NCBI RefSeq assembly: GCF_016793825.1
Contig: NZ_JAEULM010000041.1
Location: 1 to 35,619 of the forward strand
Reading direction: 5' to 3'
DNA length: 35,619 bases
Origin: Sphingopyxis sp.
GTDB taxonomy: Bacteria; Pseudomonadota; Alphaproteobacteria; Sphingomonadales; Sphingomonadaceae
This document shows, piece after piece, positions 9,390-23,776 of this stretch. Positions within the stretch are counted from its first letter, which is position 1, and every line of letters begins with the position of its first letter. The notes under the pieces are model-generated. The model did not search any database, was not told the DNA's origin, and worked only from the letters and a program-made list of their open reading frames with translations. The position numbers and the translations under genes were made by a program.

Positions 9390-9728
9390 TTAGCCGCCCA
9401 CTGTCACGCGGCCGGTTCGATAGCCCTTCTTGCGCATTTCCCGTGCATAATCCTTGTCGGCATCGACAACCTCGGCGGTCCATTCGTCCCATGCGTCCCA
9501 ACGGTCTTCACGGTCGGTCGAATGGCGCAGATCGCTGATCAGCTCCTTTTCGGCCTCGAGGATGTCCGCTTTGTAATTGTACCAGTATTGATTGTAGACG
9601 CCGGCAATCGGCACCGCGCGGATTTCGGGTCGCTCGAACCCAGCCGGCATCGAGCCATAGGGAACAGCGGCCACTGCGGCGCTGGCCGGAAGCGCCAGCA
9701 GCAAGGCGAAGCTCGTCCATTTTTTCAT
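9390..9728 (-). CDS. Small exported protein of unknown function
   Basis: The 112 aa product starts MKKWTSFALLLALPASAAVA, a clear Sec signal peptide with likely cleavage after ASAAVA or nearby. The mature ~85 residues are charged and aromatic (YNQYWYNYKADI, then WDAWDEWTAEV), mostly helical in appearance, without cysteines. No known family is recognised. The ATG at 9728 has AAGGAG a few bases upstream (rc of 9736-9741), which decides the start over a longer frame. It follows gpsA on the same strand after ~100 bases and could be the last gene of that transcript or separate. Confidence 0.75.
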   Translation of the reverse strand: MKKWTSFALLLALPASAAVAAVPYGSMPAGFERPEIRAVPIAGVYNQYWYNYKADILEAEKELISDLRHSTDREDRWDAWDEWTAEVVDADKDYAREMRKKGYRTGRVTVGG

Positions 9729-9828
9729 CGTCTGTCTCCTTGGACCCCGTTGGTCAGGAGAAGAACGAAGCAAGCGCGCTATTTCTTCCCGCCTGATCGA
9801 CGATTCGGCACGGCCCGCGGCAAAAGGG

Positions 9829-10830
9829 TCAGCCGGGGTGGGCTTCGTCGCCCACGCTCGACCGGAGCAGACCGCGGAACACTTCCTGTGCGTCGCGTTT
9901 GCCTTGCGTGACGTCGAACACGTCGCGCGCGATCGGCATCGCAATGTCATATCTGTCGGCGAGTGCCATGACCGTCGGCGCGCTCTTCACGCCCTCGGCG
10001 ACCATGTTCATACCGGCGATGATATCGGCGATAGGACGCCCCTTGCCAAGTTCGACCCCGACGTGGCGGTTGCGCGACAAGGGGCTGGTGCAGGTCGCGA
10101 TCAGATCGCCCATGCCGGTCAGTCCCGCGAAAGTTTCGGGCCGCCCGCCCATCGCTACACCGAGTCGCGTGATCTCGGCCAGCCCGCGCGTCATCAGACC
10201 GGCGCGCGTGTTGTCCCCCGCGCCGAGCCCATCGCCCATGCCGACGGCGATCGCGATGATGTTTTTGAGCACACCGCCAAGCTCGCAGCCGAGGAGGTCG
10301 GTATTGGTGTAGACGCGGAACAGTCCCGAATGGAAAACCGGCTGAAGCGCGCGAACGACGATCTCGTCTTCCATCGACAGCACGCTTGCCGCCGCCTGTC
10401 CCGCCATGATCTCCCGCGCGAGGTTCGGCCCCGTCAATACGCCGACCGGATGACCGGGAAGAATTTCCTCGATCAGCTCGGTCATCCGCTTACCCGTCGC
10501 GAGTTCAAGCCCCTTGGTCAGGCTGATCACCGGAACCCAGGGACGGAGATGATTGCGCGCTTCTTCCAGAACGCCGCGAAAGCTGTGCGAGGGAACGCCC
10601 ATCACCAGCACGTCGGCGGCCGCGACGACCGCCGCCATATCGTTTGTGGCGCGCAAGGCTGCGGGCAACTTGATCCCGGGCAGATATTTGCGATTCTCGC
10701 CGACGCTGTTGATGCCTTCGACCGTTTCGGCATCGCGCGCCCACAGTGTGATGGGGGCGTTGCGCGACACGACCGACGCGACCGTCGTCCCCCAACTGCC
10801 CCCGCCGAGCAGCCCGACCTTCAACCGCAT
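9829..10830 (-). CDS. gpsA: Glycerol-3-phosphate dehydrogenase [NAD(P)+]
   Basis: This 333 aa cytoplasmic enzyme reduces dihydroxyacetone phosphate to sn-glycerol-3-phosphate, the backbone for all glycerolipids. The dinucleotide loop LLGGGSWG is at residues 7-14, SLTKGLE at 103-109, TGPNLARE at 133-140, and the catalytic lysine is expected at K189 in GGVLKNI. RAGLMTRGL follows at ~209. The start ATG has GGGAGAGG upstream. It is the last member of the lipid block, 38 bases after an alpha/beta hydrolase, which places substrate supply with the acyltransferases. Confidence 0.97.
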   Translation of the reverse strand: MRLKVGLLGGGSWGTTVASVVSRNAPITLWARDAETVEGINSVGENRKYLPGIKLPAALRATNDMAAVVAAADVLVMGVPSHSFRGVLEEARNHLRPWVPVISLTKGLELATGKRMTELIEEILPGHPVGVLTGPNLAREIMAGQAAASVLSMEDEIVVRALQPVFHSGLFRVYTNTDLLGCELGGVLKNIIAIAVGMGDGLGAGDNTRAGLMTRGLAEITRLGVAMGGRPETFAGLTGMGDLIATCTSPLSRNRHVGVELGKGRPIADIIAGMNMVAEGVKSAPTVMALADRYDIAMPIARDVFDVTQGKRDAQEVFRGLLRSSVGDEAHPG

Positions 10831-10868
10831 GAACCTCTCCCTATTTTCGGAAGAGACTGGCGCGCATT

Positions 10869-11804
10869 TCAGAGCTTGGCAAGAAAGCCCTTCATCACGT
10901 CCGCTGTCGCCTTGGGATCTTCGACCATCGGGACATGGCCGACATGTTCGAAGATGTGCGAACGGCTTCCCGCAATGCCAAACTCAAGCACCGGGACACA
11001 ACTGACATCGAGCAAACGGTCGTGGCGACCCCAGAGAATTAAGGTCGGCGCCTTCACGTCGCCCAGCCGGTCGTTGAGCGGATGATCGCGCCCTTCGTTC
11101 GCGATAACCCAGAAGATCGCATCGAGCTGGTCGCGGTATTTGAGACCATCGGCGTAGATGACAGGCTTCAGTCGCGACGGGATATGCGGTGGCTTGTGAA
11201 CGACCATCGCAACCAGCCGGTCGGCATCCTCCAGGTTGGCGAGGACGAGCGGATTGTAATCGAGATTCGCGGCCTGTTTCTGAAGGTCGCTTTCATGCTC
11301 GCCGTTGATGCCCGCATTGTTGAGAAGGATCAGGCTGGCGAGCGCGCCCGGATAGTCGAGCGCATAGCGAAGCGCGATCCAGCCACCCATGCTGTTGCCA
11401 GCCACATGCGGGCGGTCGAGGCGAAGCGCGTCGACAAAAGCTTTCAACCGGGCGGTTTGGGCCGTGATATCATAGGCAAGATCCGGGTTGCGCTCATTCT
11501 CGCCGAAACCGGGCAGATCGGGCGCAATGATGTGATAGTCGCGGGTCAGATAGGGCGCGAGAAAAGACCAGTTATCCTTGTCGCCCGAAAAGCCATGGAC
11601 AAGCAGCAACGTCGGCTTCGCCGGGTCGCCGCCCTCCAGATAGGGCCAGGCACGACCTTCCACGACCACGCTCTTCTGCACCGTACCGCCGCGCTTGCGG
11701 AGCAGCCAGCGCCCTGAGGCGACAAGGCGACCCGGAAAGACGAAATACATCAGCACGAGTGCGATCAGCGGCGCAAACAGGAGGATAAGAAGGAATTTGA
11801 TCAT
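10869..11804 (-). CDS. Membrane-anchored alpha/beta hydrolase (lipase/esterase-like)
   Basis: The 311 aa protein has an N-terminal hydrophobic segment (residues ~3-23) that probably anchors it in the inner membrane, then an alpha/beta hydrolase domain. The HGFSGD oxyanion loop is at ~70-75, the nucleophile elbow GNSMGG at 136-141 (Ser138), an acidic residue is expected in LILWGRHDRLLD, and the histidine in HVGHVPMVEDP. This layout resembles LipG/esterase-V-type lipases. Its place between the monoacylglycerol-lipase-like gene and gpsA suggests an acylglycerol or fatty ester as substrate, but the sequence does not prove it. Confidence 0.85.
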   Translation of the reverse strand: MIKFLLILLFAPLIALVLMYFVFPGRLVASGRWLLRKRGGTVQKSVVVEGRAWPYLEGGDPAKPTLLLVHGFSGDKDNWSFLAPYLTRDYHIIAPDLPGFGENERNPDLAYDITAQTARLKAFVDALRLDRPHVAGNSMGGWIALRYALDYPGALASLILLNNAGINGEHESDLQKQAANLDYNPLVLANLEDADRLVAMVVHKPPHIPSRLKPVIYADGLKYRDQLDAIFWVIANEGRDHPLNDRLGDVKAPTLILWGRHDRLLDVSCVPVLEFGIAGSRSHIFEHVGHVPMVEDPKATADVMKGFLAKL

Positions 11805-11840
11805 GCGCGTGACGTCCCTCTCAACCCGTTGGCGTCCACT

Positions 11841-12689
11841 TCAGGCCGCAACATGCGCGTCGAACCAGCCGATCAGATCATCGAGAACCGTATCGCGTTC
11901 GGGCTCGCTATAGATTTCGTGGAACAGGCCTGGATAGATTTCGAGCCGTTTGTCCCGCGACGCGACATTGTCGAAAAGATAGCGCGAACCCGCCGGTGCA
12001 GTCAGCCGATCTGCCTCGCCATGCTGGATCAGCAGCGGCAAACTGATTTTCGGCGCATCGGCCTGTGCGACAGCCATCGCATCCATGAATTCCTTGCCCA
12101 GCCGCGCGCCGATCTTGCCGCCATAGACCAGCGGGTCCGCCTGATAGGCCGCGACGACTTGCGGATCACGGCTGACGCCGGTCGCGTCGAGCGACAGCAC
12201 GCCAAGACGCGGAAAGAAACGTGACAGAAAGCGGCTGATCCAGACCGTGAAACGCGACGGTGGCTCGGCCGGCAGGATCGCCGGTCCCGAGAGCGCGGCG
12301 GCAACGAACGCCTGCTGTCGCTCGACCAGAAACAGCGTCGCAATAAGCCCGCCCATGCTGTGGCCGAGAAGGACGCGCGGCGTGTCACCATGGTTGACCT
12401 CGACCAGCGTCAGCAACTCGCTCATGCCGTCGAGGAACGCCGAAAAGCGCGGCACGAACCCTCCCTCGCCATCCGAGTTTCCGTGACCCCAATGATCGAT
12501 CGCATAGACCGCATAGCCGGCTGTTGTCAGCCGCTTGGCAACATACTCATAGCGCCCCGCATGTTCAGCATAGCCGTGCGCAAGCAGCACGACCGCCTTC
12601 GGTCGCCCCTCCGGCAGCCAGTGCGTGACATGCAGCTTTGCGCCCGCACCGGCCGACCTCGGCGGCAGGATCACCGAAGCTGCGGTCAA
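11841..12689 (-). CDS. Alpha/beta hydrolase, monoacylglycerol lipase-like (S33 type)
   Basis: This 282 aa protein carries HGYAEHAGRYEYVA (residues 38-51), close to the HG-EHSGRY signature of monoacylglycerol lipases and lysophospholipases. The nucleophile elbow LLGHSMGG has Ser111. The acid is expected in HGEADRLT and the histidine in YPGLFHEIYSEPE near the C terminus. It should hydrolyse monoacylglycerols or lysophospholipids to free fatty acid. Its start overlaps the stop of the patatin lipase by 4 bases (ATGA), so the two lipases are translationally coupled. No signal peptide is seen. Confidence 0.88.
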   Translation of the reverse strand: MTAASVILPPRSAGAGAKLHVTHWLPEGRPKAVVLLAHGYAEHAGRYEYVAKRLTTAGYAVYAIDHWGHGNSDGEGGFVPRFSAFLDGMSELLTLVEVNHGDTPRVLLGHSMGGLIATLFLVERQQAFVAAALSGPAILPAEPPSRFTVWISRFLSRFFPRLGVLSLDATGVSRDPQVVAAYQADPLVYGGKIGARLGKEFMDAMAVAQADAPKISLPLLIQHGEADRLTAPAGSRYLFDNVASRDKRLEIYPGLFHEIYSEPERDTVLDDLIGWFDAHVAA

Positions 12690-14134
12690 CGAACCGCTTT
12701 CTTCAGCGCCGAACTGCGATGGCCGGGCCCATCGTCGCCCGCCTTGTCGAGCTTCGCGAGGATCGCGTCCAGCGCGCGGCTGATCGCCGTCTGGGTGCGG
12801 ACCATTTCGATCTTCGGCCAGGCGGTACGCTGACCGGTGTCGATCAGTTCGTCGATGTCATCCTGCGCCAGATCGCTTAAAATCTTGGTTGGCGACCAGA
12901 ATTTGGGTGGACGAATGATGTTGATGTCGCCGGTATATTCCTGATTGATGACCGAGCGCGCCATATTGGCGAGGCTGTTGAGCGGCGGCACCATTTCAAG
13001 CGGCTTCTGGAAAATCACCATGTTTGCGTTAAGCCACGCCTTGAACGTCGCGATCGACGCATGCTGAATGGCTTCGATCGGCGCCATCTGCTTGCGCGTG
13101 TCGGTTGCAAACGGCAGCGCCAGCGGGTTGGCCTGACTGACGATATGATGGTTCACGCCATAGAGGCGTTCGAGGCGCTTGGTCGGAATATCGTGCGTCA
13201 CAGACCCATCGACCCAACGCCGGTCGGGCTGATAGGCAACACGGTTGCCCGCCTCGTCGCGCGCCATCAGCATCACGGGCGGGAAGACGCCCGGAACCGC
13301 GCACGACGCCAGTACCGCCTCACGGATCAGCACATTGGGCGCGGTGATCGCGTTGAGCAGGCGACCGTTCTGATGCTTTTCGGCGGGAGCGACCGAAACG
13401 TTGAGATGCCGGCCGCTGATCTCATACGCTTCCTGAAAGGTCAGGTCGGGAATCAATTCGGCCAGCCGGTCGCGCACTTCGTCGGGCGCAAGCCGCTTCA
13501 TTTCGGGGCCGCGGTCGGGATTGGCGAGCCGCTTGCTTTCAAGGAAGGGACCGACGTCGGCGTCCTTGCGCGTGCAGACGATGGCCGCGACGATCGATCC
13601 GCCACTCGACCCCGCCAGGATGTTCGGCAGCACGCCTTCGCCCCACAGCGCCTTGACGACGCCGACGTGGAAGAAGAGGAAACTGCCCGACCCCGACAGC
13701 AGCAACGCCGAACGTCCATAGCAATGCTGCGCGCGGCGGAAGAAATCACGCTTTTCTTCGCGCGGGATCAAGCGCGAGGCCGCGATCTTGTCGAGCGCTG
13801 CGACGACTTCGGCGACATAGGCCTCGATCAGCTTCTTCGTGCCGAACCGAGCCTTCTGATACAGGCGTTCGTGGCCCATGCCGTCGATGTTGCCGTGGAT
13901 GCCCTCGTTGAGTACGAACAATAGTCCCTTGACGTCACCCGCCGCCGACAGCTTGCGCAATTTTTCGAGCCGGGTGCGGATCGCCTTATAGTCGAAGTGC
14001 CGGCTTTCGTCGGCGTCTCGCCACCCCTGCATCCCCGATTTCGCGTCGTGCGCCTGTGCCGCTTTCGACCAGGCGGCATAATTGGACGCACTTGCAAGCT
14101 CGGCGTCGGCGCTGAGCGTCGGGGCAAATATCAT
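12686..14134 (-). CDS. Patatin-like phospholipase/TAG lipase with DUF3336 domain
   Basis: This 482 aa protein has an N-terminal DUF3336 region (about residues 20-135, with WRDADESRHFDYKAI and NEGIHGNIDGMGH). The patatin domain follows: oxyanion-like LLSGSGSF (~145-152), the lipase elbow AGSSGGS with Ser177, and the dyad aspartate in WVDGS (Asp309). The same two-domain order occurs in yeast Tgl3/4/5 and plant SDP1 triacylglycerol lipases, which act on lipid droplets. It lies 21 bases after the WS/DGAT gene, so it probably degrades the product of that gene. It has no signal peptide, and a cytoplasmic or lipid-inclusion location is inferred. Confidence 0.9.
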   Translation of the reverse strand: MIFAPTLSADAELASASNYAAWSKAAQAHDAKSGMQGWRDADESRHFDYKAIRTRLEKLRKLSAAGDVKGLLFVLNEGIHGNIDGMGHERLYQKARFGTKKLIEAYVAEVVAALDKIAASRLIPREEKRDFFRRAQHCYGRSALLLSGSGSFLFFHVGVVKALWGEGVLPNILAGSSGGSIVAAIVCTRKDADVGPFLESKRLANPDRGPEMKRLAPDEVRDRLAELIPDLTFQEAYEISGRHLNVSVAPAEKHQNGRLLNAITAPNVLIREAVLASCAVPGVFPPVMLMARDEAGNRVAYQPDRRWVDGSVTHDIPTKRLERLYGVNHHIVSQANPLALPFATDTRKQMAPIEAIQHASIATFKAWLNANMVIFQKPLEMVPPLNSLANMARSVINQEYTGDINIIRPPKFWSPTKILSDLAQDDIDELIDTGQRTAWPKIEMVRTQTAISRALDAILAKLDKAGDDGPGHRSSALKKAVR

Positions 14135-14155
14135 TCGTTGATCCTGCGAGATGGC

Positions 14156-15745
14156 TTATTTTTTCCGATTCTTGCCGGTTGCGTTGCCTTTGGCAACCGG
14201 TTTCGGCTTGGGCTTGCCCGCCAGTTTTGGCACAGCTTTCACCTTGGCCCGCGGTTTCGGCACCGCTTCGGCGACCGCTTTCGGCTTTGCCGTAGCGGCT
14301 TTTCGGTTCGCGATCGGCTTCTCCGGCTTCGGTATCGCCGCCATCAGATCGGCGAAACTTTCATCAATGCAGGTCCGAAAAAAGGCGATGTCGGGCATGA
14401 TCGCGCGCTCGCCGATGATCGAGAAGGCGATCCGACCATTATAACTGGGGGTCGCGATGAACAGCCCCATATTGTTCGCAAGTGGCGCCATCCCGTACTG
14501 TTGCACAAGCTGCGCACCGGCGAGATACAGCGGCACCTGCGCACCGGGGACGTTCGAAATGAAAAGATTGGTCCCCCGCACCGCGAACCTTTCGCTGGTG
14601 ACGATGCGCGCGACGGCCGCCATCGTCGCGCCCGGAATATGCTGTGACAGATCGGTCATGATCCGCGCGCTGACGCCCGCTTTCGCTTCCTTGGCTTCGA
14701 CCGTATAGTCTCGCACCGCCGCCAGCCTTTCCAGGGGATCGGCGATGTCGGTGCGGATCGGCACGCTCATCGCCGAGACCTGATTGCCGGGGGTCGATGC
14801 CTTCCCCGCGGCCTTCTCCTTGCCGCGCAGGTTGATCGGCGCGACCGCGACCAGACTCTCCTTCGGCAATTCCTTGTGCTTCGCAAGATATTTGCGGAGC
14901 GCGCCGCCGACGGTGGTCAAGACCACGTCATTCACCGTCGCGCCGGGCACTTTTTTGCGAATTTCCGCGACATCGGCCAGCGCCACGGTCGTACCCTCGA
15001 ACATCTTGTGCGGACCAACGGGCGCGTTGAAGCGCGTCTCCGGAACCCCCGCCGTCATCCCGCCTTCGGCGATCGACTTGCGCGCCGACGCGACAATAGC
15101 AGGCGACATCTTCATCAAGGCGTTCATGAACTTGACGGGTGACTGGAGCGAGGCCGACCATGCGCGCGTCACGGTCTCGGCACTTGACGGTGGGCGACCG
15201 AGGTCTTCGGACGGCGGCGGTTCGGAAATCGCGGGCGTCCCCTTCGCGTCGATATCGCTCATCGCGATGAAAGCGTGGGCGCCCGACGCACCATCGACCG
15301 CGGCATGATGAACGCGGTGCAGCATCGCAAAACTGCCCTTTGGGATGCCGGGAATGCGGTCGAGCCCCTCGATGACATAAATGTCCCATAGCGGTCGGTT
15401 CATATCCATCGGCTTCGAGAAATAGCGCGCCACCGCGATGCAGAACTGTCGCCAGTCACCGGGTTCGGGCAGCCGCGCATGGCTCATATGCGCCTCGATG
15501 TCGAAATGCTCGTCCTCGACCCAATAGGGATGGTCGAGGTCGAAGGGCAGCCGGTGAAGGCGGCGCTTGAACAGCGGCGAGGTGTGAACCCGGCTTTCGA
15601 CGTGACGGATGATGTCCTTGAAGCGCACGAAGCCGCCGGGCGCGGTCGAGGGATCGTAGATATAGATCCCCATGATGTGCGTCAGATTGTTCGCTGTCTG
15701 CGTATAGAGGAACTGGGCGTCCTGCGCGCTGAGCTGCTTAAGCAT
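14156..15745 (-). CDS. Wax ester synthase/diacylglycerol acyltransferase (WS/DGAT)
   Basis: This 529 aa protein makes triacylglycerol and/or wax ester from acyl-CoA and diacylglycerol or fatty alcohol. The PLW motif is at 118-120, the catalytic HHAAVDG at 146-152, and the conserved ND in VNDVVLTTVGGALRKYL lies in the second half. All three define the family. Residues ~473-529 are an added low-complexity tail rich in Lys, Pro and Ala with no fold. The gene overlaps the plsB stop by 8 bases and is followed by the patatin lipase. Whether it prefers diacylglycerol or alcohol cannot be read from sequence. No fatty-acyl reductase lies in the window, which favours triacylglycerol. Confidence 0.95.
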   Translation of the reverse strand: MLKQLSAQDAQFLYTQTANNLTHIMGIYIYDPSTAPGGFVRFKDIIRHVESRVHTSPLFKRRLHRLPFDLDHPYWVEDEHFDIEAHMSHARLPEPGDWRQFCIAVARYFSKPMDMNRPLWDIYVIEGLDRIPGIPKGSFAMLHRVHHAAVDGASGAHAFIAMSDIDAKGTPAISEPPPSEDLGRPPSSAETVTRAWSASLQSPVKFMNALMKMSPAIVASARKSIAEGGMTAGVPETRFNAPVGPHKMFEGTTVALADVAEIRKKVPGATVNDVVLTTVGGALRKYLAKHKELPKESLVAVAPINLRGKEKAAGKASTPGNQVSAMSVPIRTDIADPLERLAAVRDYTVEAKEAKAGVSARIMTDLSQHIPGATMAAVARIVTSERFAVRGTNLFISNVPGAQVPLYLAGAQLVQQYGMAPLANNMGLFIATPSYNGRIAFSIIGERAIMPDIAFFRTCIDESFADLMAAIPKPEKPIANRKAATAKPKAVAEAVPKPRAKVKAVPKLAGKPKPKPVAKGNATGKNRKK

Positions 15746-18080
15746 CTGACCCTCCGGGTAGTTTGTCGGCCAGCGCCGTCGTCGACAGGCGCATCGATTC
15801 CATCACATTGGCAAGCCCGCGAAGTTCCACCAGCAGCGCGCGCCGCGCGGCGAGGCTGTCGGGGGTTGCGATCTCGGCGAGCCCCATATGCCGCATCAGC
15901 GACAATCCGTTTTCAAAGAGCAGCTTGCCGATGGCGGCCTCGCTGCTGATCCGGCGGAGGAGATAGGCCTGCCGACCCTCGACCAGCGCGGTGTCGAGCA
16001 GCGCCTTCGCATCGACCTCGTCGCCTGGCTTCGCGCGCGTCAGCAGGTCGGCGACGACCGAATAGGCCTCCGCGAAGGGAAGAAGGATCGCGTGACCGAC
16101 GACGGGCTGGCTGCGACGGATCAACTGCGCGACGCCGCGGTCTCCGCTGGCCAGACGCTTCTCCCAGGCCGGATCGATGCGCGCGAGCTCAGCCTCCAGA
16201 GCCGCGCGATGCTCGTCGCGGGGAGGATAGAAGAACTCGAACTTGAACAGGTCGCGCAGCCGGTCGATCTTCGCCCAGAACCCTGCGCCCGTGTCGCGTT
16301 CGCCGCTGTCGCGAAGCTGGAACAGCGCCAGTTCGATCATCGCACGATCCAGGAAGTGGTGGGCAATGATGTTGCGATAATAGCTCGCCATCGGATGCTT
16401 CGCGGGATCGATCGAATAGACATTCTCGCTCCCTGCCTCATAGCGAGCGAGCAGACCGCTCTCGACAAGCGTATCGACGGTCAAGGAAAGCGCGCGGTCG
16501 TCGCGGCTTTCCAGTTCCTTGCTGAGCCGAATATCGCGCACCCGCGCCCAGTCGGTAACCGCCGCGATCGCCGCCAGCAGTTCAGCCGCAGTCGCGCCGC
16601 GCGGAGCAAGCCCGAGGAGGATAAGACACATAACCGAAGTGACAGTGAGCGGCGTGACACGGTTCGCCTCGACCGCAACCGCGAAGGCGATCCGTTCGAG
16701 CGCGCGCTTGTCGTCGGGTCCCGGTGCCTCGTCAATCACCACCGGATCGCCGATATCCAGCCGGATGCGGCCCGACGGTTCCTTCAGGCTCTTCATATAC
16801 CCGATGAACCAGCTCAGGCTTTCGGGTTTCTTGTTCCGGCCGGTCTGTTCGGCGGCATATTCCTCGACATCGCGGATCAGGTCGAAACTGGTCACGAAGG
16901 GCACGAAATGCACATCGCGCGTGCCGGTCGCGTGCGCCGCGTCGAGGACATATTTCATCAGTCCGTATTTCGGCGGCATCAGCTTGCCGAGCCGCGAGCG
17001 CGTTCCCTCGAACGCCCAGCTCAGCGGAAAGCGTTTTGCGAGCAGCCAGGCGATATAGTGGCGGAGCACCAGCTTGTAGACCGGCTGGTCCTGGAAACTG
17101 CGCCGGATGAAGATCATTCCCGACCGGCGAAAGAATTCGCCCATCACCGCAAAGTCAAGGTTCGCGCCGCCGAAACTGTGCAGCATCGGCATGTCGTTTT
17201 CATAAAGTAGCCGGCTGGGCGTCGCGCCATCAATATAAGTCTTATGCGTGAACAGGATCGAGGTCGGATGCTCGCGAAGGATGCTGCGCAGCTTCGCCAT
17301 TTCGGCCGCATCGACTTCCATCTCGGGCGCGTAGCCGCCGAACATCATCCGGTCGAGCCGCGCCCGCAAATCAAGGAACAGCGCCGAAGGCCGCGCGATG
17401 ACTTCCTTCATCAGCGGTCGCGCCTCGCGATAGAGATCGGCGACCGGGCGCCCCGTCGTATCGGAAAGCTCGGCCAGCGCGGCGCGGAATTTGGGACTGG
17501 TACGCAGCCCATCGGCAACGAAGCGCGGCACCTTGTAGCGGCTACCGCGAATGCCGCGTTCGGCGACATCGAGCGCCAGCGCCGCTTGCCGTGCAACGAA
17601 GCCCGCAAATTCCGGGCTTTCAGTCCCCTCCCCATCACCGCCGCCGGTCTGCGTACAAAAGCGATCCCGCAGCGCGTCGAGCGTCGCGGCCTCACCGACA
17701 AGAATCTGCGCGCGGCGCCGGTCACGCCACAGGATGAACCGCGCCCGCAGCGGCCCCGGATGTCGCGGATCACCGAAGATCAGGTGACGAAATTTGAGTG
17801 CGCGATCCCGGTCGAAGGCGGGAATACGCCACGCGACGCGCAAGGGAACGACCAGCCGCGATGGCGCGCCATCGAGCCGCAACTGCAGCATGTCGATGGG
17901 CAGCGCATGATCGCCGTCCTCGATGTCGAGGCTCGCCCACTGCGGCTCGCGGTCGCCCGATGTCGCGTGAATCCAGTCGAGCAGAATGCGCCGTTCGACC
18001 CCATTGCGTGCGTCGATGATATAGAGCCGGTCGGCCGCCTGTTCCGCCACGATTCCGGCGCGGGGGGTGCCGTCGGCCAT
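15738..18080 (-). CDS. plsB: Glycerol-3-phosphate 1-O-acyltransferase, PlsB type
   Basis: This 780 aa inner-membrane-associated enzyme acylates sn-1 of glycerol-3-phosphate. The four acyltransferase blocks are present: I, HKTYID at 279-284 (HxxxxD); II, GMIFIRRSF at 321-329; III, FEGTRSR at 357-363; and IV, VHFVPFVTSFD a little later. The long N-terminal region before block I and the helical C terminus match the PlsB rather than the PlsY or PlsC type. It follows the HAD-PlsC gene by 120 bases and overlaps the WS/DGAT start by 8. Some sphingomonads may also have PlsX/PlsY, in which case this copy could be dedicated to storage lipid. That is not testable here. Confidence 0.95.
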   Translation of the reverse strand: MADGTPRAGIVAEQAADRLYIIDARNGVERRILLDWIHATSGDREPQWASLDIEDGDHALPIDMLQLRLDGAPSRLVVPLRVAWRIPAFDRDRALKFRHLIFGDPRHPGPLRARFILWRDRRRAQILVGEAATLDALRDRFCTQTGGGDGEGTESPEFAGFVARQAALALDVAERGIRGSRYKVPRFVADGLRTSPKFRAALAELSDTTGRPVADLYREARPLMKEVIARPSALFLDLRARLDRMMFGGYAPEMEVDAAEMAKLRSILREHPTSILFTHKTYIDGATPSRLLYENDMPMLHSFGGANLDFAVMGEFFRRSGMIFIRRSFQDQPVYKLVLRHYIAWLLAKRFPLSWAFEGTRSRLGKLMPPKYGLMKYVLDAAHATGTRDVHFVPFVTSFDLIRDVEEYAAEQTGRNKKPESLSWFIGYMKSLKEPSGRIRLDIGDPVVIDEAPGPDDKRALERIAFAVAVEANRVTPLTVTSVMCLILLGLAPRGATAAELLAAIAAVTDWARVRDIRLSKELESRDDRALSLTVDTLVESGLLARYEAGSENVYSIDPAKHPMASYYRNIIAHHFLDRAMIELALFQLRDSGERDTGAGFWAKIDRLRDLFKFEFFYPPRDEHRAALEAELARIDPAWEKRLASGDRGVAQLIRRSQPVVGHAILLPFAEAYSVVADLLTRAKPGDEVDAKALLDTALVEGRQAYLLRRISSEAAIGKLLFENGLSLMRHMGLAEIATPDSLAARRALLVELRGLANVMESMRLSTTALADKLPGGSDA

Positions 18081-18200
18081 CGCTCAGCAAGCCCCCACCG
18101 GTTCTCCGCTCGTAGCGAGCGAAGGCAAGACAGCCACAAGGAGCGCGCTACCGTTCGGCATCTCGACTTCGCCCGATGCGAACGGGTTTTATATCGACCA

Positions 18201-19760
18201 TCACCCCTTTGCCGCCTTCCTCGCGGCAGCCTTTTTCTTCGCCGGTTTCGGCTCGGCCTTCTTTCCGGCTGTCTTCTTCGCTGGCTTCGCTACCGCAGCC
18301 TGCGCTTCCGCGACCGCACTCTCTTCCTCGGCTTGCCCCAGCGTGCGCAGAAACATATTCCGCACATCGCGCACATGAGTGTTCAGCGTCTTGACGCTCC
18401 ACTGCGAGGTATCGACCGGCGGCAATACGGTAACGCGCACCGTGGCGGGGCGCATGACGAATTCATTCTTCGGCGCAACGTCGGTTGCATTGTGGATCAC
18501 GATCGGGACGATCGGCACGCCCGCCTGCATCGCGAGGTGGAAGGCCCCCTTCTTGAAAGGTTCCAGCTTCGGGGTCAGGCTGCGCGTCCCTTCGGGCGCA
18601 ATACAGATCGACTTGCCTTCTTTCCGGATCGCATCGACCAGCGGTTCCATCGCCTTGATCGCGCTCTTTCCGTCGGCACGATCGACGAAGACGGTGCCGC
18701 CCCATTCCATCAGTTTGCCGAGGATGGGAATATTCTTGATTTCCTTCTTCCCCACCCCGCCCATGTCGCGACGGATGAGCTTGGCAAGGATCATCACGTC
18801 CGCCTTGCTCTGATGGTTGAAGATGAAGATGCACGGACGCGAGGACCAAAGATGGCGTTCGTCCTCGACCTCCAGCTCAACCCCGGTGATCGCGGTCGCG
18901 AAATCGCCGAACAGCCCCATCGAGAAATTGACCGCCTCCCGCTGTGAGCGGGTGAGCGCCCAGATCGGCAGGCCGGCGGCGAACGCCCCGACGAGCGAAC
19001 CAGTCGCGTAAATGGTCCGTGTATAGTCGATCCACGACGGCGTTCCGCGGCTGCCAAAGCGCTGAACCGGCCAGTTTCGTTCGTCCGCGATTCCCTTCAG
19101 TTTCATGTTCGGATTGAGCGGGCGCGGCTTGCCGACACGTTCAAGCAGTTCGATGTCGTCGTCGCTGTCCGAGTAGAAAAAGCTCTGGTCCAGATCGAGG
19201 CCATATTCGGCGGCGAGTTCCTCCGCCGCGATCACCTTGCCTTCGCCAAAACAGAGCGGGCGGATGATATCGCCGGTGAATATCCCGTCCTCGATCTCGT
19301 AGGCCGAGCATTTGATGTCGGTAATGCCAAGGTCGCGCGCGGTCGGCTCGATCTGATAGATCGTCGCCGACGAGATGATCGCGACGCGATGCCCCTTTGC
19401 CTGATGCGCCTCGATGATCGCGCGCGTCTCCGGGTAGATTTTCCGTGCGATGTGCTTCTTGTAGAGTTCTTCGCCGAACTGGGTGAAACTCTCCTCGTCT
19501 ACGCCCTTCATGAACTTGGCGGCAGCGCTCATCAGGCCGGAAAAGCCGATCTGCCCCAGGCTATGCTGCGCCACAACCTGCGCGGTTTCCGCGATTTCTT
19601 CCATCGACATTTCGCGACGCTGGAATTTCTCGCGCAGCATCGCAGTTGCCGAGTAGCCGGATATGATGGTGCCATCGAAATCGAAAAGCGCGGCAATGTG
19701 CGATCCGGGTTCGGACGCGAGGACTTCTTCCAAATGTGGCTGCGGCCTTGGCACGCGCAT
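18201..19760 (-). CDS. HAD-IB phosphatase-1-acylglycerol-3-phosphate acyltransferase fusion (PlsC-like)
   Basis: This 519 aa protein has two enzymes in one chain. The N-terminal HAD-IB domain carries ALFDFDGT (nucleophile Asp27, residues 24-31), SSAT near 131-134 and the Mg-binding YSDSDDD at ~196-202. Its substrate is unknown; HAD-IB relatives include phosphoserine phosphatase. The C-terminal PlsC domain has NHQSKAD (315-321), FVDR (358-361) and PEGTRS (389-394), the motifs for acylating lysophosphatidate at sn-2. A ~30-residue Lys/Ala-rich tail ends the protein. It is the first gene of the lipid block, 60 bases after eda. The same fusion lies next to plsB and a DGAT in mycobacteria (Rv2483c), which supports a shared role. 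Dephosphorylating a phospholipid intermediate is an attractive but unproven role for the HAD part. Confidence 0.92.
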   Translation of the reverse strand: MRVPRPQPHLEEVLASEPGSHIAALFDFDGTIISGYSATAMLREKFQRREMSMEEIAETAQVVAQHSLGQIGFSGLMSAAAKFMKGVDEESFTQFGEELYKKHIARKIYPETRAIIEAHQAKGHRVAIISSATIYQIEPTARDLGITDIKCSAYEIEDGIFTGDIIRPLCFGEGKVIAAEELAAEYGLDLDQSFFYSDSDDDIELLERVGKPRPLNPNMKLKGIADERNWPVQRFGSRGTPSWIDYTRTIYATGSLVGAFAAGLPIWALTRSQREAVNFSMGLFGDFATAITGVELEVEDERHLWSSRPCIFIFNHQSKADVMILAKLIRRDMGGVGKKEIKNIPILGKLMEWGGTVFVDRADGKSAIKAMEPLVDAIRKEGKSICIAPEGTRSLTPKLEPFKKGAFHLAMQAGVPIVPIVIHNATDVAPKNEFVMRPATVRVTVLPPVDTSQWSVKTLNTHVRDVRNMFLRTLGQAEEESAVAEAQAAVAKPAKKTAGKKAEPKPAKKKAAARKAAKG

Positions 19761-19820
19761 CTCCCCACCAGCGACTATATTGCCGCTTTCCCTGCACGAT
19801 GGCAGTAAAGATGACGTTTA

Positions 19821-20444
19821 TCAATGGCGCGAAAGTGCAGATGCCTCGCGGGCCAATGTCTCGACGCTGACCGGGTCAAGCGATCCCGACGGGACAACCC
19901 AACTGCCACCGACACAGAGCACCGCGTCGAGCGCGAGCCATTCGGGCGCCGTCGCCGCGCTGATGCCGCCGGTCGGGCAGAAACGCGCGTTTCCGAAGGG
20001 CCCGGCGAGCGCTTTCAGCGCCGGAATGCCGCCGCTGGTCGCCGCAGGGAAGAATTTGAAACGCGACAGGCCAAGGTCCATGCCGCGCATGATGTCCCCG
20101 GCATTCGCGGTGCCGGGCAAGAAGGGAATGCCGCTCGCGACCGCCGCTTTACCCAGATTGTCGGTGAGCCCCGGCGAGACGATGAATTCGGCGCCCGCCT
20201 GAATCGCACTGTTCAGCATCGCGGGATCGAGCACCGTGCCGGCGCCGACGACCGCGCCCTTCACCGCCTTCATCGCGGTGAGCGCATCGAGCGCGGCGGG
20301 GGTGCGTAGCGTGACTTCGAGCACCGGCAGGCCACCGGCAACGAGCGCCTCGGCCATGGGCACCGCATCCTCGACCCGATCGATCACGATCACCGGGATG
20401 ACGGGCGCAAGGCGCATGATCTGGTCGATGCTATGGTCGGTCAT
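19821..20444 (-). CDS. eda: 2-dehydro-3-deoxy-phosphogluconate (KDPG) aldolase
   Basis: This 207 aa class I aldolase splits KDPG into pyruvate and glyceraldehyde-3-phosphate, the last step of the Entner-Doudoroff route. Glu43 in LEVTLRTP, the GAGT loop at 67-70 and the Schiff-base lysine K130 in FKFFPA are present, as is the phosphate-binding CPTGGIS. The start is ATG 20444 (MTDHSIDQIMRLAPVIPVI). The upstream in-frame extension to 20630 overlaps edd and is not needed. It lies 34 bases after edd. Confidence 0.97.
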   Translation of the reverse strand: MTDHSIDQIMRLAPVIPVIVIDRVEDAVPMAEALVAGGLPVLEVTLRTPAALDALTAMKAVKGAVVGAGTVLDPAMLNSAIQAGAEFIVSPGLTDNLGKAAVASGIPFLPGTANAGDIMRGMDLGLSRFKFFPAATSGGIPALKALAGPFGNARFCPTGGISAATAPEWLALDAVLCVGGSWVVPSGSLDPVSVETLAREASALSRH

Positions 20445-20478
20445 TACTGGCTTCTCTTTCTCGTCATCCCGGCGAAAA

Positions 20479-22320
20479 TTAGACGACGGTCTCCATCGCC
20501 GCCAAAATTGCCGATCCGCCCTTTTCGGCTTCGTCGGCATGATGGCGGAACAGCGCGAACAGTTCGCGGCCGACGCCAAGCGCCGGAGGCGGCGCGATGG
20601 CGGGAGAGCGCGCGGCCCATTCGGCCTCATCGACCAGCGCGACCGCTTCGCCGTTCACGGCGCAGACGCGGACGATGTCGCCATCCTTGAGGTAAGCGAG
20701 CGGACCGCTGACGCCGTCGGGACCGGGCAAGGCTTCGGGGGAGAGGTGAATCACCGCGGGCACCTTGCCGCTCGCGCCCGACATGCGGCCGTCAGTGAGC
20801 AAAGCAACGCGGAAACCCTTGTCCTGCAACACGCCGAGCGCGGGGGTCAGCTTGTGGAGTTCGGGCATGCCGTTGGCGCGCGGGCCCTGGAAGCGGACGA
20901 CGACAACGACGTCGCGGTCGAGTTCGCCCGCCTTGAACGCTGTGAGCACCTGATTCTGGTCGTCAAAGATCCGGCACGGCGCCTCGATGGTCCAGCGATC
21001 CTTGTCGACGGCGCTGGTCTTGATGATCGCGCGGCCGAGATTTCCTGCCAGAAGGCGCATGCCGCCGTCGGGCGAGAAGGGCGCTGCCACCGGCCGTAAC
21101 ATCGTGTCATCGCGGCTTTTCGCCGGCGAGGCCCGCCAGTGCAGTTCGTCATCCACGAGCATGGGCTCGGCGGCATAATCAGCCATCGTTCCGCCTACGG
21201 TCAACACATCGCCGTGGAGCAGCCCCGCGCCCAGCAACTCGCGAACGACATACCCAATTCCGCCCGCGGCGTGGAAGTTGTTCACGTCGCCCGCACCGTT
21301 CGGATAGACGCGCGCAAGCAGCGGGACCGCGTGGCTGAGTTCGTCGAAATCCTGCCAGTCGATGATAATCCCCGCCGCGCGCGCGATCGCGGGCAAATGG
21401 ATCGCGTGGTTGGTCGATCCACCCGTCGCGAGCAGGCCGATCGCAGCGTTGACGATCGCCTTTTCGTCGATACAGCGCGCCAGCGGGCGATAATCATCGC
21501 CATCCCAGCCGATCCGGGCGATCCGATGCGTCGCGGCACGTGTCAGTTCCTGCCGCAGCTTGGTGCCGGGGTTGGTGAAGGCGCTGCCGGGAATGTGCAG
21601 CCCCATCAGTTCCATCATCATCTGGTTGCTGTTCGCGGTGCCATAGAAGGTGCAGGTGCCGGCGCCATGATAGCTCGCCGCCTCGGCCTCGAGCAGCTCG
21701 TCGCGGCCCACCTTCCCCTCGGCATAAAGCTGGCGGACGCGCTGCTTTTCCTTGTTGGCGAGGCCCGATGGCATCGGGCCTGCAGGAACGAGAATTGTCG
21801 GCAGATGCCCGAAACGCAGCGCGCCGATCAACAGGCCGGGGACGATCTTGTCACAAATGCCAAGCAGCAGCGCGCCCTCGAACATCGCATGGCTGAGCGC
21901 GATCACGGTCCCCTGCGCGATATTGTCGCGGCTGAACAGCGACAGGTCCATGCCTGCCTGCCCCTGCGTGACCCCGTCGCACATCGCGGGAACCCCGCCC
22001 GCAACCTGCGCCGTCGCACCGACTTCACGGGCAAAAAGTTTGATCTGCTCGGGATAGCGACCATAGGGCTGATGCGCCGAGAGCATGTCGTTATAGGCGG
22101 TGACGATACCGATGTTCATTTCGGTGCCCGCGCGAATCGCAGGCTTGTCTTCGCCCGACGCCGCGAACCCATGCGCGAGGTTGCCGCACGACAGGTTCCC
22201 CCGATTGGTGCCAGCCTCGCGCTGACGGCCCATCAGGTCAAGATAGGCGGCCCGCCTCGGCGCGCTGCGGGCGATGATGCGGTCCGTGACCGCTGCGATG
22301 GACGGGTGCAGGTCAGTCAT
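20479..22320 (-). CDS. edd: 6-phosphogluconate dehydratase
   Basis: This 613 aa iron-sulfur enzyme of the IlvD/Edd family converts 6-phosphogluconate to [43 protein letters not shown] and GICDKIVPG are Edd signatures and include the cluster cysteines. [12 protein letters not shown] lies near the C-terminal part. The start ATG overlaps the zwf stop by 8 bases, so the two are coupled. The length is normal. Confidence 0.98.
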
Positions 22321-23776
22321 GCCAACTCGCTCCGTCCCGCTCGATCAGCGCGATGGCGCTCGACGGGCCCCAGCTTCCGGCAGTGTAGGATTGCGGTGCC
22401 ATGTCGACTTCGGCCCAGGCGTCGCGGATCGAATCGATCCACTCCCATTGCGCCTCGACCTCGTCGCGGCGCACGAACAACGTCTGGTCTCCCTCGATGA
22501 AATCGAGCAGCAGCCGCTCATATGCGATGCGCCGCCGTTCGCCCTCGAAGCTGTGCGAGAGCGAGACGTCCATCGTCACTTCCTTCAGCTTGACCCCATC
22601 GCGGTCGAGCCCGGGCTGCTTTGCCATCACCCTGACCCGAATATTCTCCTCCGGCTGCAGGTTGATGATCATCATGTTCGCATCGAGCTTGCCCGCGCCG
22701 ACGCGCGCAAAGATATTGTGCGGAACGGGCTTGAACTGGATCAACACTTCCGACTTGCGCTGTGGCATGCGCTTGCCGGTGCGAAGGTAAAAGGGGACGC
22801 CCTTCCAGCGCCAATTGTCGATGAACGCCTTGATCGCCACGAAGGTCTCGGTATTCGACGGCCGGCCGAGTTCGTCGGCATAGCCGGTGACCGCGGCGCC
22901 GTTCACCGCGCCGCTCGTGTACTGGCCTTTCACGCTGTGCGCCTTGACGTCCTCGGCTTTCAGCTTGCGGAGACTGCGCAGCAGCTTGACCTTCTCGTCG
23001 CGCACCGCGGTCGCCGACACGCTGGCAGGCGGCTCCATCGCAATGATCGCGAGAAGCTGGAGCATATGGTTCTGCACCATGTCCTTCAGCGCGCCGACCC
23101 CGTCATAATAGGAAACGCGGCCCTCCAGCCCGACCGTCTCGGCAACGGTGATCTGGACGTGGTCGATCGCCTGCGCGTTCCACAGCGGTTCGAACAGCAT
23201 GTTCGCAAAGCGCAGCGCGAGCAGATTCTGGACCGTTTCCTTGCCCAGATAATGGTCGATGCGGAACACCCGGTCTTCGGCAAAGGCATCGCCGACCTGC
23301 GCATTCACTTCGCGCGACGAAGCCAGGTCGTGGCCGATCGGCTTTTCCATTGCGATGCGGCATTCCGCGCAGGCGATTCCGGCGGCACTCAGGCCCTGCG
23401 CGATCGGCCCGAACATCGACGGCGGCGTCGACAGATAGGCGCCGACCGGGCGACCGAGACGGTCGCCGAGCTGGGCTGCGAGTTCATCATAGCCGGTGCC
23501 CGCGCCAGCATCGACCGGGCAATAATCAATGCGGCCGAGAAAGCTTGCGATGGCATCCTCATCGATCCGGTCAGCGGAAAGATGATCGGTCAGCGCCGCG
23601 CGCACCATTTCGTGGCAACCCGCGCGGTCCATCTTCGAGCGACCCGACGCGACGATCGTGAGCGTATCGGCAAGCAACCCATCGACGTGGAGATTGTAGA
23701 GCGAAGGAAAAAGCATGCGCTGCGCGAGGTCGCCCGTCGCGCCGAACAGAATCAGGGTTTCGACTTTCACGCTCAC
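22313..23776 (-). CDS. zwf: Glucose-6-phosphate 1-dehydrogenase
   Basis: This 487 aa enzyme oxidises glucose-6-phosphate to 6-phosphogluconolactone and yields NADPH/NADH. The coenzyme loop GATGDLAQR is at residues 12-20, EKPIGHDL at ~144-151, and the active-site RIDHYLGKE at 172-180. The start is GTG at 23776, with AAGGGG six bases upstream. It leads the zwf-edd-eda operon and is divergent from glpD across 124 bases. No 6-phosphogluconolactonase gene (pgl) sits between zwf and edd, as it does in many operons of this kind. Confidence 0.98.

Follow-up and report, generated by a model that had tools for sequence, protein, structure and literature searches.

Positions 9829 to 19760 of a Sphingopyxis contig (NZ_JAEULM010000041.1; its 35,619 nucleotides, here called the window, are a 35.6-kb contig within a 3.86-Mb genome) hold seven genes on the - strand that, with an estimated probability of roughly 0.78, form a dedicated acyl-CoA-dependent Kennedy-pathway unit for the storage and mobilization of triacylglycerol (TAG), apart from housekeeping phospholipid synthesis. 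Judged by its genes the block belongs to a described kind of gene cluster, with a gene set that is unusually complete. Kennedy-pathway clusters of this kind are known already; apparently new are the histone-like basic tails on two of the enzymes, HAD-PlsC and WS/DGAT, since no description of basic tails on bacterial TAG enzymes was found in the literature searched (main texts, including few subscription papers). Besides these tails, two features go beyond the original prediction, which was made from the letters of the window: a zwf-edd-eda run 60 bases upstream of the block, and the absence of a separate phosphatidate phosphatase gene from within it. The enzyme activities, the use of acyl-CoA and the function of the tails are predicted from sequence.

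Gene content and predicted pathway

Protein families were assigned with Pfam and NCBIfam, applying the curated NCBIfam cut-offs, and together with the open reading frames (ORFs) they agree with the seven genes, strand and order that the original prediction had named:

18201..19760, - strand: HAD-PlsC fusion, HAD-IB phosphatase domain (residues ~17-236) and PlsC/lysophosphatidate (LPA) acyltransferase domain (~240-476)
15738..18080, - strand: PlsB, glycerol-3-phosphate acyltransferase (GPAT) of the PRK03355 kind (NF002886, 936 bits, cut-off 721)
14156..15745, - strand: WS/DGAT, predicted last step to TAG (TIGR02946, 398.8 bits, cut-off 309.95)
12686..14134, - strand: DUF3336-patatin, candidate lipase of TAG or diacylglycerol (DAG) (PF11815 and PF01734)
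11841..12689, - strand: monoacylglycerol-lipase-like (MGL-like) hydrolase (PF12146; TTG start)
10869..11804, - strand: second alpha/beta hydrolase (ABH), with a hydrophobic N-terminus by eye
9829..10830, - strand: GpsA, glycerol-3-phosphate dehydrogenase (NF009098, 533 bits, cut-off 436)

Overlaps of 4-8 bases, predicted at two junctions, are found between PlsB and WS/DGAT (8 bases) and between the patatin and MGL genes (4 bases, with MGL read from its TTG), and the remaining junctions are gaps of 120 (HAD-PlsC/PlsB), 21 (DGAT/patatin), 36 (MGL/ABH) and 38 bases (ABH/GpsA). PlsB, whose nearest named relatives are from Sphingopyxis, is presumably of the mycobacterial PlsB2 kind. DUF3336 patatins are linked to TAG lipases of yeast and plants, and for the patatin of the block no PDB sequence relative was found at E 0.01. 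By sequence the MGL-like hydrolase resembles the PDB monoglyceride lipases 6eic (E 6.4e-60) and 7ozm (E 1.6e-59), and the second alpha/beta hydrolase resembles 6i8w (E 1.1e-58) and the monoacylglycerol lipase ABHD6 (7ots, E 3.4e-32).

Conservation of catalytic residues was counted over the homologue rows covering each position. The HAD motifs of HAD-PlsC are intact: D27 and D29 are kept in 76/76 rows and K175 and D198 in 77/77, position 130 is S or T in 77/77 (T in L068), and D202 is kept in 76/77 (E in L023). The HX4D and EGTR residues of PlsB are kept in all 84 homologues and the HHxxxDG residues of DGAT in all 59 (at other tested positions S replaces N272 and D273 in the short row L104), as are the patatin nucleophile Ser in the 49 rows covering it and the dyad Asp in 50 of 50.

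In the pathway that these genes suggest, GpsA would make glycerol-3-phosphate (G3P), PlsB and the PlsC domain would acylate it to phosphatidate (PA), the HAD domain would probably take off the phosphate, and WS/DGAT would form TAG, from which the DUF3336-patatin, MGL-like and ABHD6-like hydrolases would then free fatty acids stepwise. The earlier claim that the block runs from synthesis to hydrolysis holds in that a conserved gene set for making and hydrolyzing TAG is present together with a G3P dehydrogenase of its own, and extends to the phosphatase step only if the HAD domain performs it. That it does so is probable from sequence; because this role of the HAD half as the missing phosphatidate phosphatase was already proposed in 2016 (PMC4850399) and 2023 (PMC10351704), it is not claimed here as new. 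The best structural matches of the HAD domain are 3fvv, of unknown function, and many phosphoserine phosphatases.

The Kennedy-pathway reading is supported by purified M. smegmatis PlsB2, described as transferring acyl groups from acyl-CoA onto sn-1 of G3P (PMC10593935). Its dedicated character is suggested by the rest of the genome, where a PlsY and another GpsA (40% identity to that of the block) are found elsewhere, so that both G3P and GPAT seem to be provided from within the block. Two GpsA matches are present in 19 of 21 genomes of the genus (the other two having only the lower-scoring one), and PlsY in 20 of 21, the one without it being 88% complete. The same genome also encodes one polyhydroxyalkanoate (PHA) synthase and a second WS/DGAT. 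Two points weigh against the reading: the block is known here from genes alone, and a pair of PAP2 proteins, encoded in the same genome on contigs other than that of the window, could act as phosphatase in place of the HAD domain. Within the phylum, few studies have dealt with TAG storage in classes other than Gammaproteobacteria (PMC10351704 calls itself the first to acknowledge such potential there), and a block this compact, predicted to provide its own G3P, would offer a clean genetic handle on it.

Relatives, known systems and competing readings

The comparison of loci covers the best 80 of at least 468 confirmed loci with PlsB relatives; many of the 80 are close relatives of one another, and counts across them are not independent. 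In the comparison across relatives that the original prediction had proposed, gene order is not scattered in close relatives: all seven genes occur in the same order and on the same strand at 33 of the 80 loci (Sphingopyxis, Sphingorhabdus, Parasphingorhabdus and kin), and a number of the incomplete loci are broken by contig ends. In 74/80 the first block gene met upstream of PlsB is HAD-PlsC, read in the same direction; of the six exceptional loci, two have PlsB followed by DGAT, one has HAD-PlsC reversed, one has a patatin in between, and in two PlsB is accompanied by GpsA or by no block gene. The zwf-edd-eda run is represented by two or more of its genes at 28/80 loci. In Sphingorhabdus sp. 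EL138 (L052) the seven genes have gcrA and genes for a gyrase B-type protein and an ABC-2 transporter nearby, and an enoyl-CoA hydratase gene comes after them; because these surroundings are other than zwf-edd-eda, the block order holds in at least two neighborhoods.

Relatives outside Alphaproteobacteria were found in Halieaceae, Woeseiaceae and other gammaproteobacteria. Halieaceae-group rows mostly carry a shorter version, HAD-PlsC/PlsB/GpsA, some with MGL, and in the Woeseiaceae group (L098, L101 and L103, the last titled only Gammaproteobacteria) HAD-PlsC/PlsB/DGAT faces ABH and DUF3336-patatin. A distant version (L023, G136:C7), in which HAD-PlsC and MGL converge with PlsB and GpsA and no DGAT match is present, adjoins ORFs resembling by eye transketolase, gapA, pgk and fructose-bisphosphate aldolase. 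Among 196 genomes drawn from the order, PlsB finds a match (E 1e-100 or better) in 8, and 6 of these, counting the genome of the window itself, come from the window's genus; some match to NF002886 occurs in 116/398 genomes of the phylum, its cut-off being passed by only 2, both of that genus.

Trees of PlsB (39 rows) and DGAT (25 rows) agree in how they group Sphingopyxis, Novosphingobium metagenome-assembled genomes (MAGs) and Sphingorhabdus-type rows; because L023 and the actinobacterial PlsB rows sit on long branches, no claim of a transfer event is made. Some genomes of the genus lack a block gene, namely the GpsA of the block (G088, G209) or PlsB (G088, G116). A clean empty site was sought there and rejected: the 14-kb stretches at the best edd copies hold no zwf, eda or block gene matches (E 1e-6), so the sites are not comparable.

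The arrangement has known counterparts. In Rhodococcus jostii RHA1, atf9-plsB-plsC were described as one operon by RNA-seq (PMC4850399), bringing together a WS/DGAT, a GPAT and an acylglycerolphosphate acyltransferase (AGPAT)-HAD fusion whose HAD part was proposed as an alternative phosphatidate phosphatase; WS/DGAT, PlsB-type GPAT and HAD-PlsC are likewise adjacent on one strand in Sphingopyxis. The RHA1 operon is named in that description as these three genes only, whereas the Sphingopyxis block adds GpsA and three hydrolases. Mycobacterial Rv2482c-Rv2485c, which the original prediction had called a mirror of the core, similarly places PlsB2, HAD-PlsC (named a bifunctional enzyme) and TAG synthase side by side (PMC10699116, PMC10593935). 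The likeness to this and the rhodococcal cluster stands for HAD-PlsC, PlsB and DGAT (PMC10699116, PMC4850399) and fails at the fourth mycobacterial gene, which by the published descriptions is LipQ, a putative carboxylesterase, where the block has a DUF3336 patatin. Relatives of PlsB and HAD-PlsC in Mycobacterium paragordonae and Nocardia are 33-38% identical (PlsB 33-34%). Clusters of the same kind, with HAD-AGPAT and GPAT at ws/dgat, are described for Parasphingorhabdus halotolerans JK6, Woeseiaceae and Arenicella (PMC10351704), and some of the Kennedy-pathway clusters there also hold a G3P dehydrogenase or hydrolases, as the block does; the words Sphingopyxis, lysine, tail and patatin do not occur in the main text of that paper. 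Plant sn-2 GPAT4/6/8, likened here by description only, also combine an acyltransferase and a phosphatase domain in one polypeptide but convert G3P to 2-monoacylglycerol for cutin (PMC5945757).

Two other uses of the gene set were weighed. The block might serve phospholipid remodelling or the salvage of exogenous fatty acids, with TAG as a side product: phosphatidate would be the product of PlsB and PlsC, a patatin may act as a phospholipase, and in many loci of the Halieaceae group no DGAT lies next to HAD-PlsC/PlsB/GpsA. The block nevertheless includes a DGAT whose HHxxxDG residues are invariant, and PlsY and the second GpsA are present in the same genome, which makes this use unlikely. A futile cycle, favored by the original prediction, in which the synthases and the three hydrolases within one conserved block are active at once and remodel acyl chains, is more improbable still, since co-location is uninformative on simultaneous activity and storage followed by mobilization accounts equally well for the gene set.

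Basic tails on HAD-PlsC and WS/DGAT

Within the window the two tails are:

18204..18314, - strand: basic tail of HAD-PlsC, Lys/Ala/Pro-rich, residues 483-519; pLDDT <50, probably disordered; two PAKK motifs
14159..14338, - strand: basic tail of the block WS/DGAT, Lys/Ala/Pro-rich, residues ~470-529, from tail statistics

Counted over the residues beyond the catalytic domain, a net charge at or above the threshold of +7 is reached by 65/80 HAD-PlsC and 55/58 block DGAT tails. In a stricter test restricted to the last 40 residues, 54/81 HAD-PlsC and 39/59 DGAT proteins pass, as against none of the PlsB (0/84), patatin (0/50), MGL (0/51), ABH (0/46) or GpsA (0/59) proteins of the block and 1/697 other non-overlapping ORFs of at least 150 codons, a background picked by length in which some are not genes. 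The tails are thus specific to two of the seven proteins, and they are specific also with respect to paralogues: in 15 Sphingopyxis genomes, where 30 of 35 WS/DGAT places were covered (the 5 weaker ones being left out), the strict test is passed by the block DGAT in 15/15 and by the paralogous DGAT in 0/15. The second WS/DGAT of the window's genome (L002/L024, G000:C7:189766-191157) has no basic tail, and a like paralogue is present in each of the 15. Both tails are C-terminal and Lys/Ala/Pro-rich; the structure model covered HAD-PlsC, and the low pLDDT refers to the tail of that enzyme. The tails of the Luminiphilus HAD-PlsC proteins (L097, L100) are extreme, with 268 and 183 residues.

The two tails may serve to anchor fat synthesis, either on DNA or on membranes. 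Most likely they would keep HAD-PlsC and DGAT on a common polyanionic surface, either nucleoid DNA or an anionic membrane or droplet, and on such a shared surface PA, DAG and TAG would be handled at one place.

It is quite possible, at somewhat less than even odds, that this surface is the inner membrane at the place where lipid bodies bud, with the tails bound to anionic phospholipid (PA, phosphatidylglycerol or cardiolipin). The tails are strongly positive, and both tailed enzymes, as judged from their families, would act at PA- or DAG-bearing surfaces. This anchor fits less well with the lack of F and W, the near absence of Y and the small number of large hydrophobic residues in the tails, or with PlsB, which also works on lipid yet has no tail.

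Alternatively, and more tentatively, HAD-PlsC and DGAT would bind DNA non-specifically, which would position newly forming lipid bodies on the chromosome, the enzymes themselves doing what MLDS, PhaF/PhaM and AlgP do as separate proteins. The pooled composition (K 23-25%, A 22-23%, P 12-15%, F and W 0) and the pLDDT of the HAD-PlsC tail are consistent with such binding, as are PAKK, [STA]P[KR]K or KPA[AK] motifs, which occur in 54/80 HAD-PlsC and 28/59 DGAT tails as against 1/84 PlsB, 1/50 patatin and no MGL, ABH or GpsA proteins. Precedents point the same way: the PAKKA-bearing C-terminus of MLDS, a protein of Rhodococcus lipid droplets, is described as binding DNA, and replacement of its lysines by glutamate as abolishing binding (PMC5504291), and DNA-binding Lys-rich tails are described for AlgP of polyphosphate granules (PMC9239181) and for PhaF and PhaM of PHA granules (PMC13052382, whose main text contains neither 'lipid droplet' nor 'triacylglycerol'). 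Rhodococcus MLDS, Pseudomonas PhaF and AlgP and Cupriavidus (Ralstonia) PhaM resemble the block tails in having histone-like or Lys/Pro/Ala-rich C-terminal parts and, by these descriptions, differ in being granule proteins that are not synthases, while the block tails, known from sequence alone, sit on TAG-synthesizing enzymes. No basic tail was seen on the two actinobacterial HAD-PlsC and one DGAT examined, which also favors a nucleoid tether. On the other side, the DGAT tail of the window has none of the named motifs, and basic tails bind other polyanions as well.

Several observations weigh against the main reading and against tails as a universal feature. HAD-PlsC tails fall below the charge threshold in 15/80 rows, comprising all three of the Woeseiaceae group, both Novosphingobium MAGs, 4/32 Sphingopyxis rows and L023, L054, L068, L071 (a fragment), L077 and L104; DGAT tails do so in L075, L077 and L104. 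Moreover, most Halieaceae-group loci have a tailed HAD-PlsC and no neighboring DGAT, so the presence of this tail does not require a DGAT gene beside it.

It is conceivable, if still rather doubtful, that in Sphingopyxis and its marine proteobacterial relatives the TAG-making enzymes bear their own histone-H1-like tails and fat is made on the nucleoid surface. If so, PHA and polyphosphate granules would not be the sole Gram-negative storage bodies on the nucleoid, and for fat the synthases would carry the tether themselves, in place of a separate protein such as MLDS. The conserved tails would permit a direct and cheap test of Gram-negative lipid-body positioning and of tethers fused to synthesizing enzymes.

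Junctions, leader and surroundings

Three further features lie at the junctions of the block and upstream of it:

18081..18200, - strand: HAD-PlsC/PlsB gap, likely an inserted palindromic repeat; contains GTCGAGATGCC; fold -46.6 kcal/mol
19761..19820, - strand: 60-base leader upstream of HAD-PlsC, candidate promoter/operator; aligns in 30 Sphingopyxis loci
19821..23776, - strand: zwf-edd-eda flank (Entner-Doudoroff genes); eda by Pfam and NCBIfam, zwf and edd by eye

The zwf-edd-eda run, which is on the same strand and ends 60 bases before the block starts, was not counted as a block member. Gap lengths were measured in 31 Sphingopyxis rows, the window included, and most junctions are either tight or ~100-200 bases longer, exceptions including gaps of 1395 bases (L047, MGL/ABH) and 289 bases (L043); negative values in L032 and L048 are artefacts of the automatic start call. 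With these artefacts excluded, the shortest gaps from eda to GpsA are 60, 3, -8, 20, -5, -7 and 37 bases, such that every junction is at most 60 bases in some row. The HAD-PlsC/PlsB gap measures 3-14 bases in 8/31 rows and 104-177 in the other 23. Insertions of ~100-150 bases, many with palindromic repeat words, occur at differing block junctions (L018, L021, L025-L050, L066, L072) and leave gene order unbroken. In 568 kb of Sphingopyxis loci GTCATTGCGA or its complement occurs 38 times and GTCGAGATGCC 11 times, where about 1 occurrence is expected (10-mer, equal base use).

Where the gap between eda and HAD-PlsC is longer, the additional DNA lies on the eda side of the leader, among the matches listed. 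Because the 60 bases align in 30 loci and the extra DNA is eda-side, a promoter within the leader, upstream of HAD-PlsC, is plausible. The leader consensus contains two short inverted repeats, CTGC-N6-GCAG and CGGC-AATATA-GCCG, the window having GTCG as the last arm. From the gap lengths and the conserved leader we infer a single transcript for the seven genes. Read-through from zwf-edd-eda as the sole promoter was considered; the conserved leader and the Sphingorhabdus-type blocks without those neighbors speak against it, and neither is proof. Scanning for promoters yielded 4 sites (2.7 expected) and for terminators 17 (12.9 expected); neither the intergenic gaps of the block nor the stretch from eda to HAD-PlsC contains a terminator-like site on the - strand.

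Downstream of GpsA, an ORF at 9390-9950 has an internal signal-peptide-like start by eye and no Pfam or NCBIfam match, and its relatives stand at the same position in many Sphingopyxis loci. Near the contig end, positions 814-2814 of the window encode an N6 DNA methylase with an HSDR_N_2 domain, in a stretch of lower GC (~0.57).

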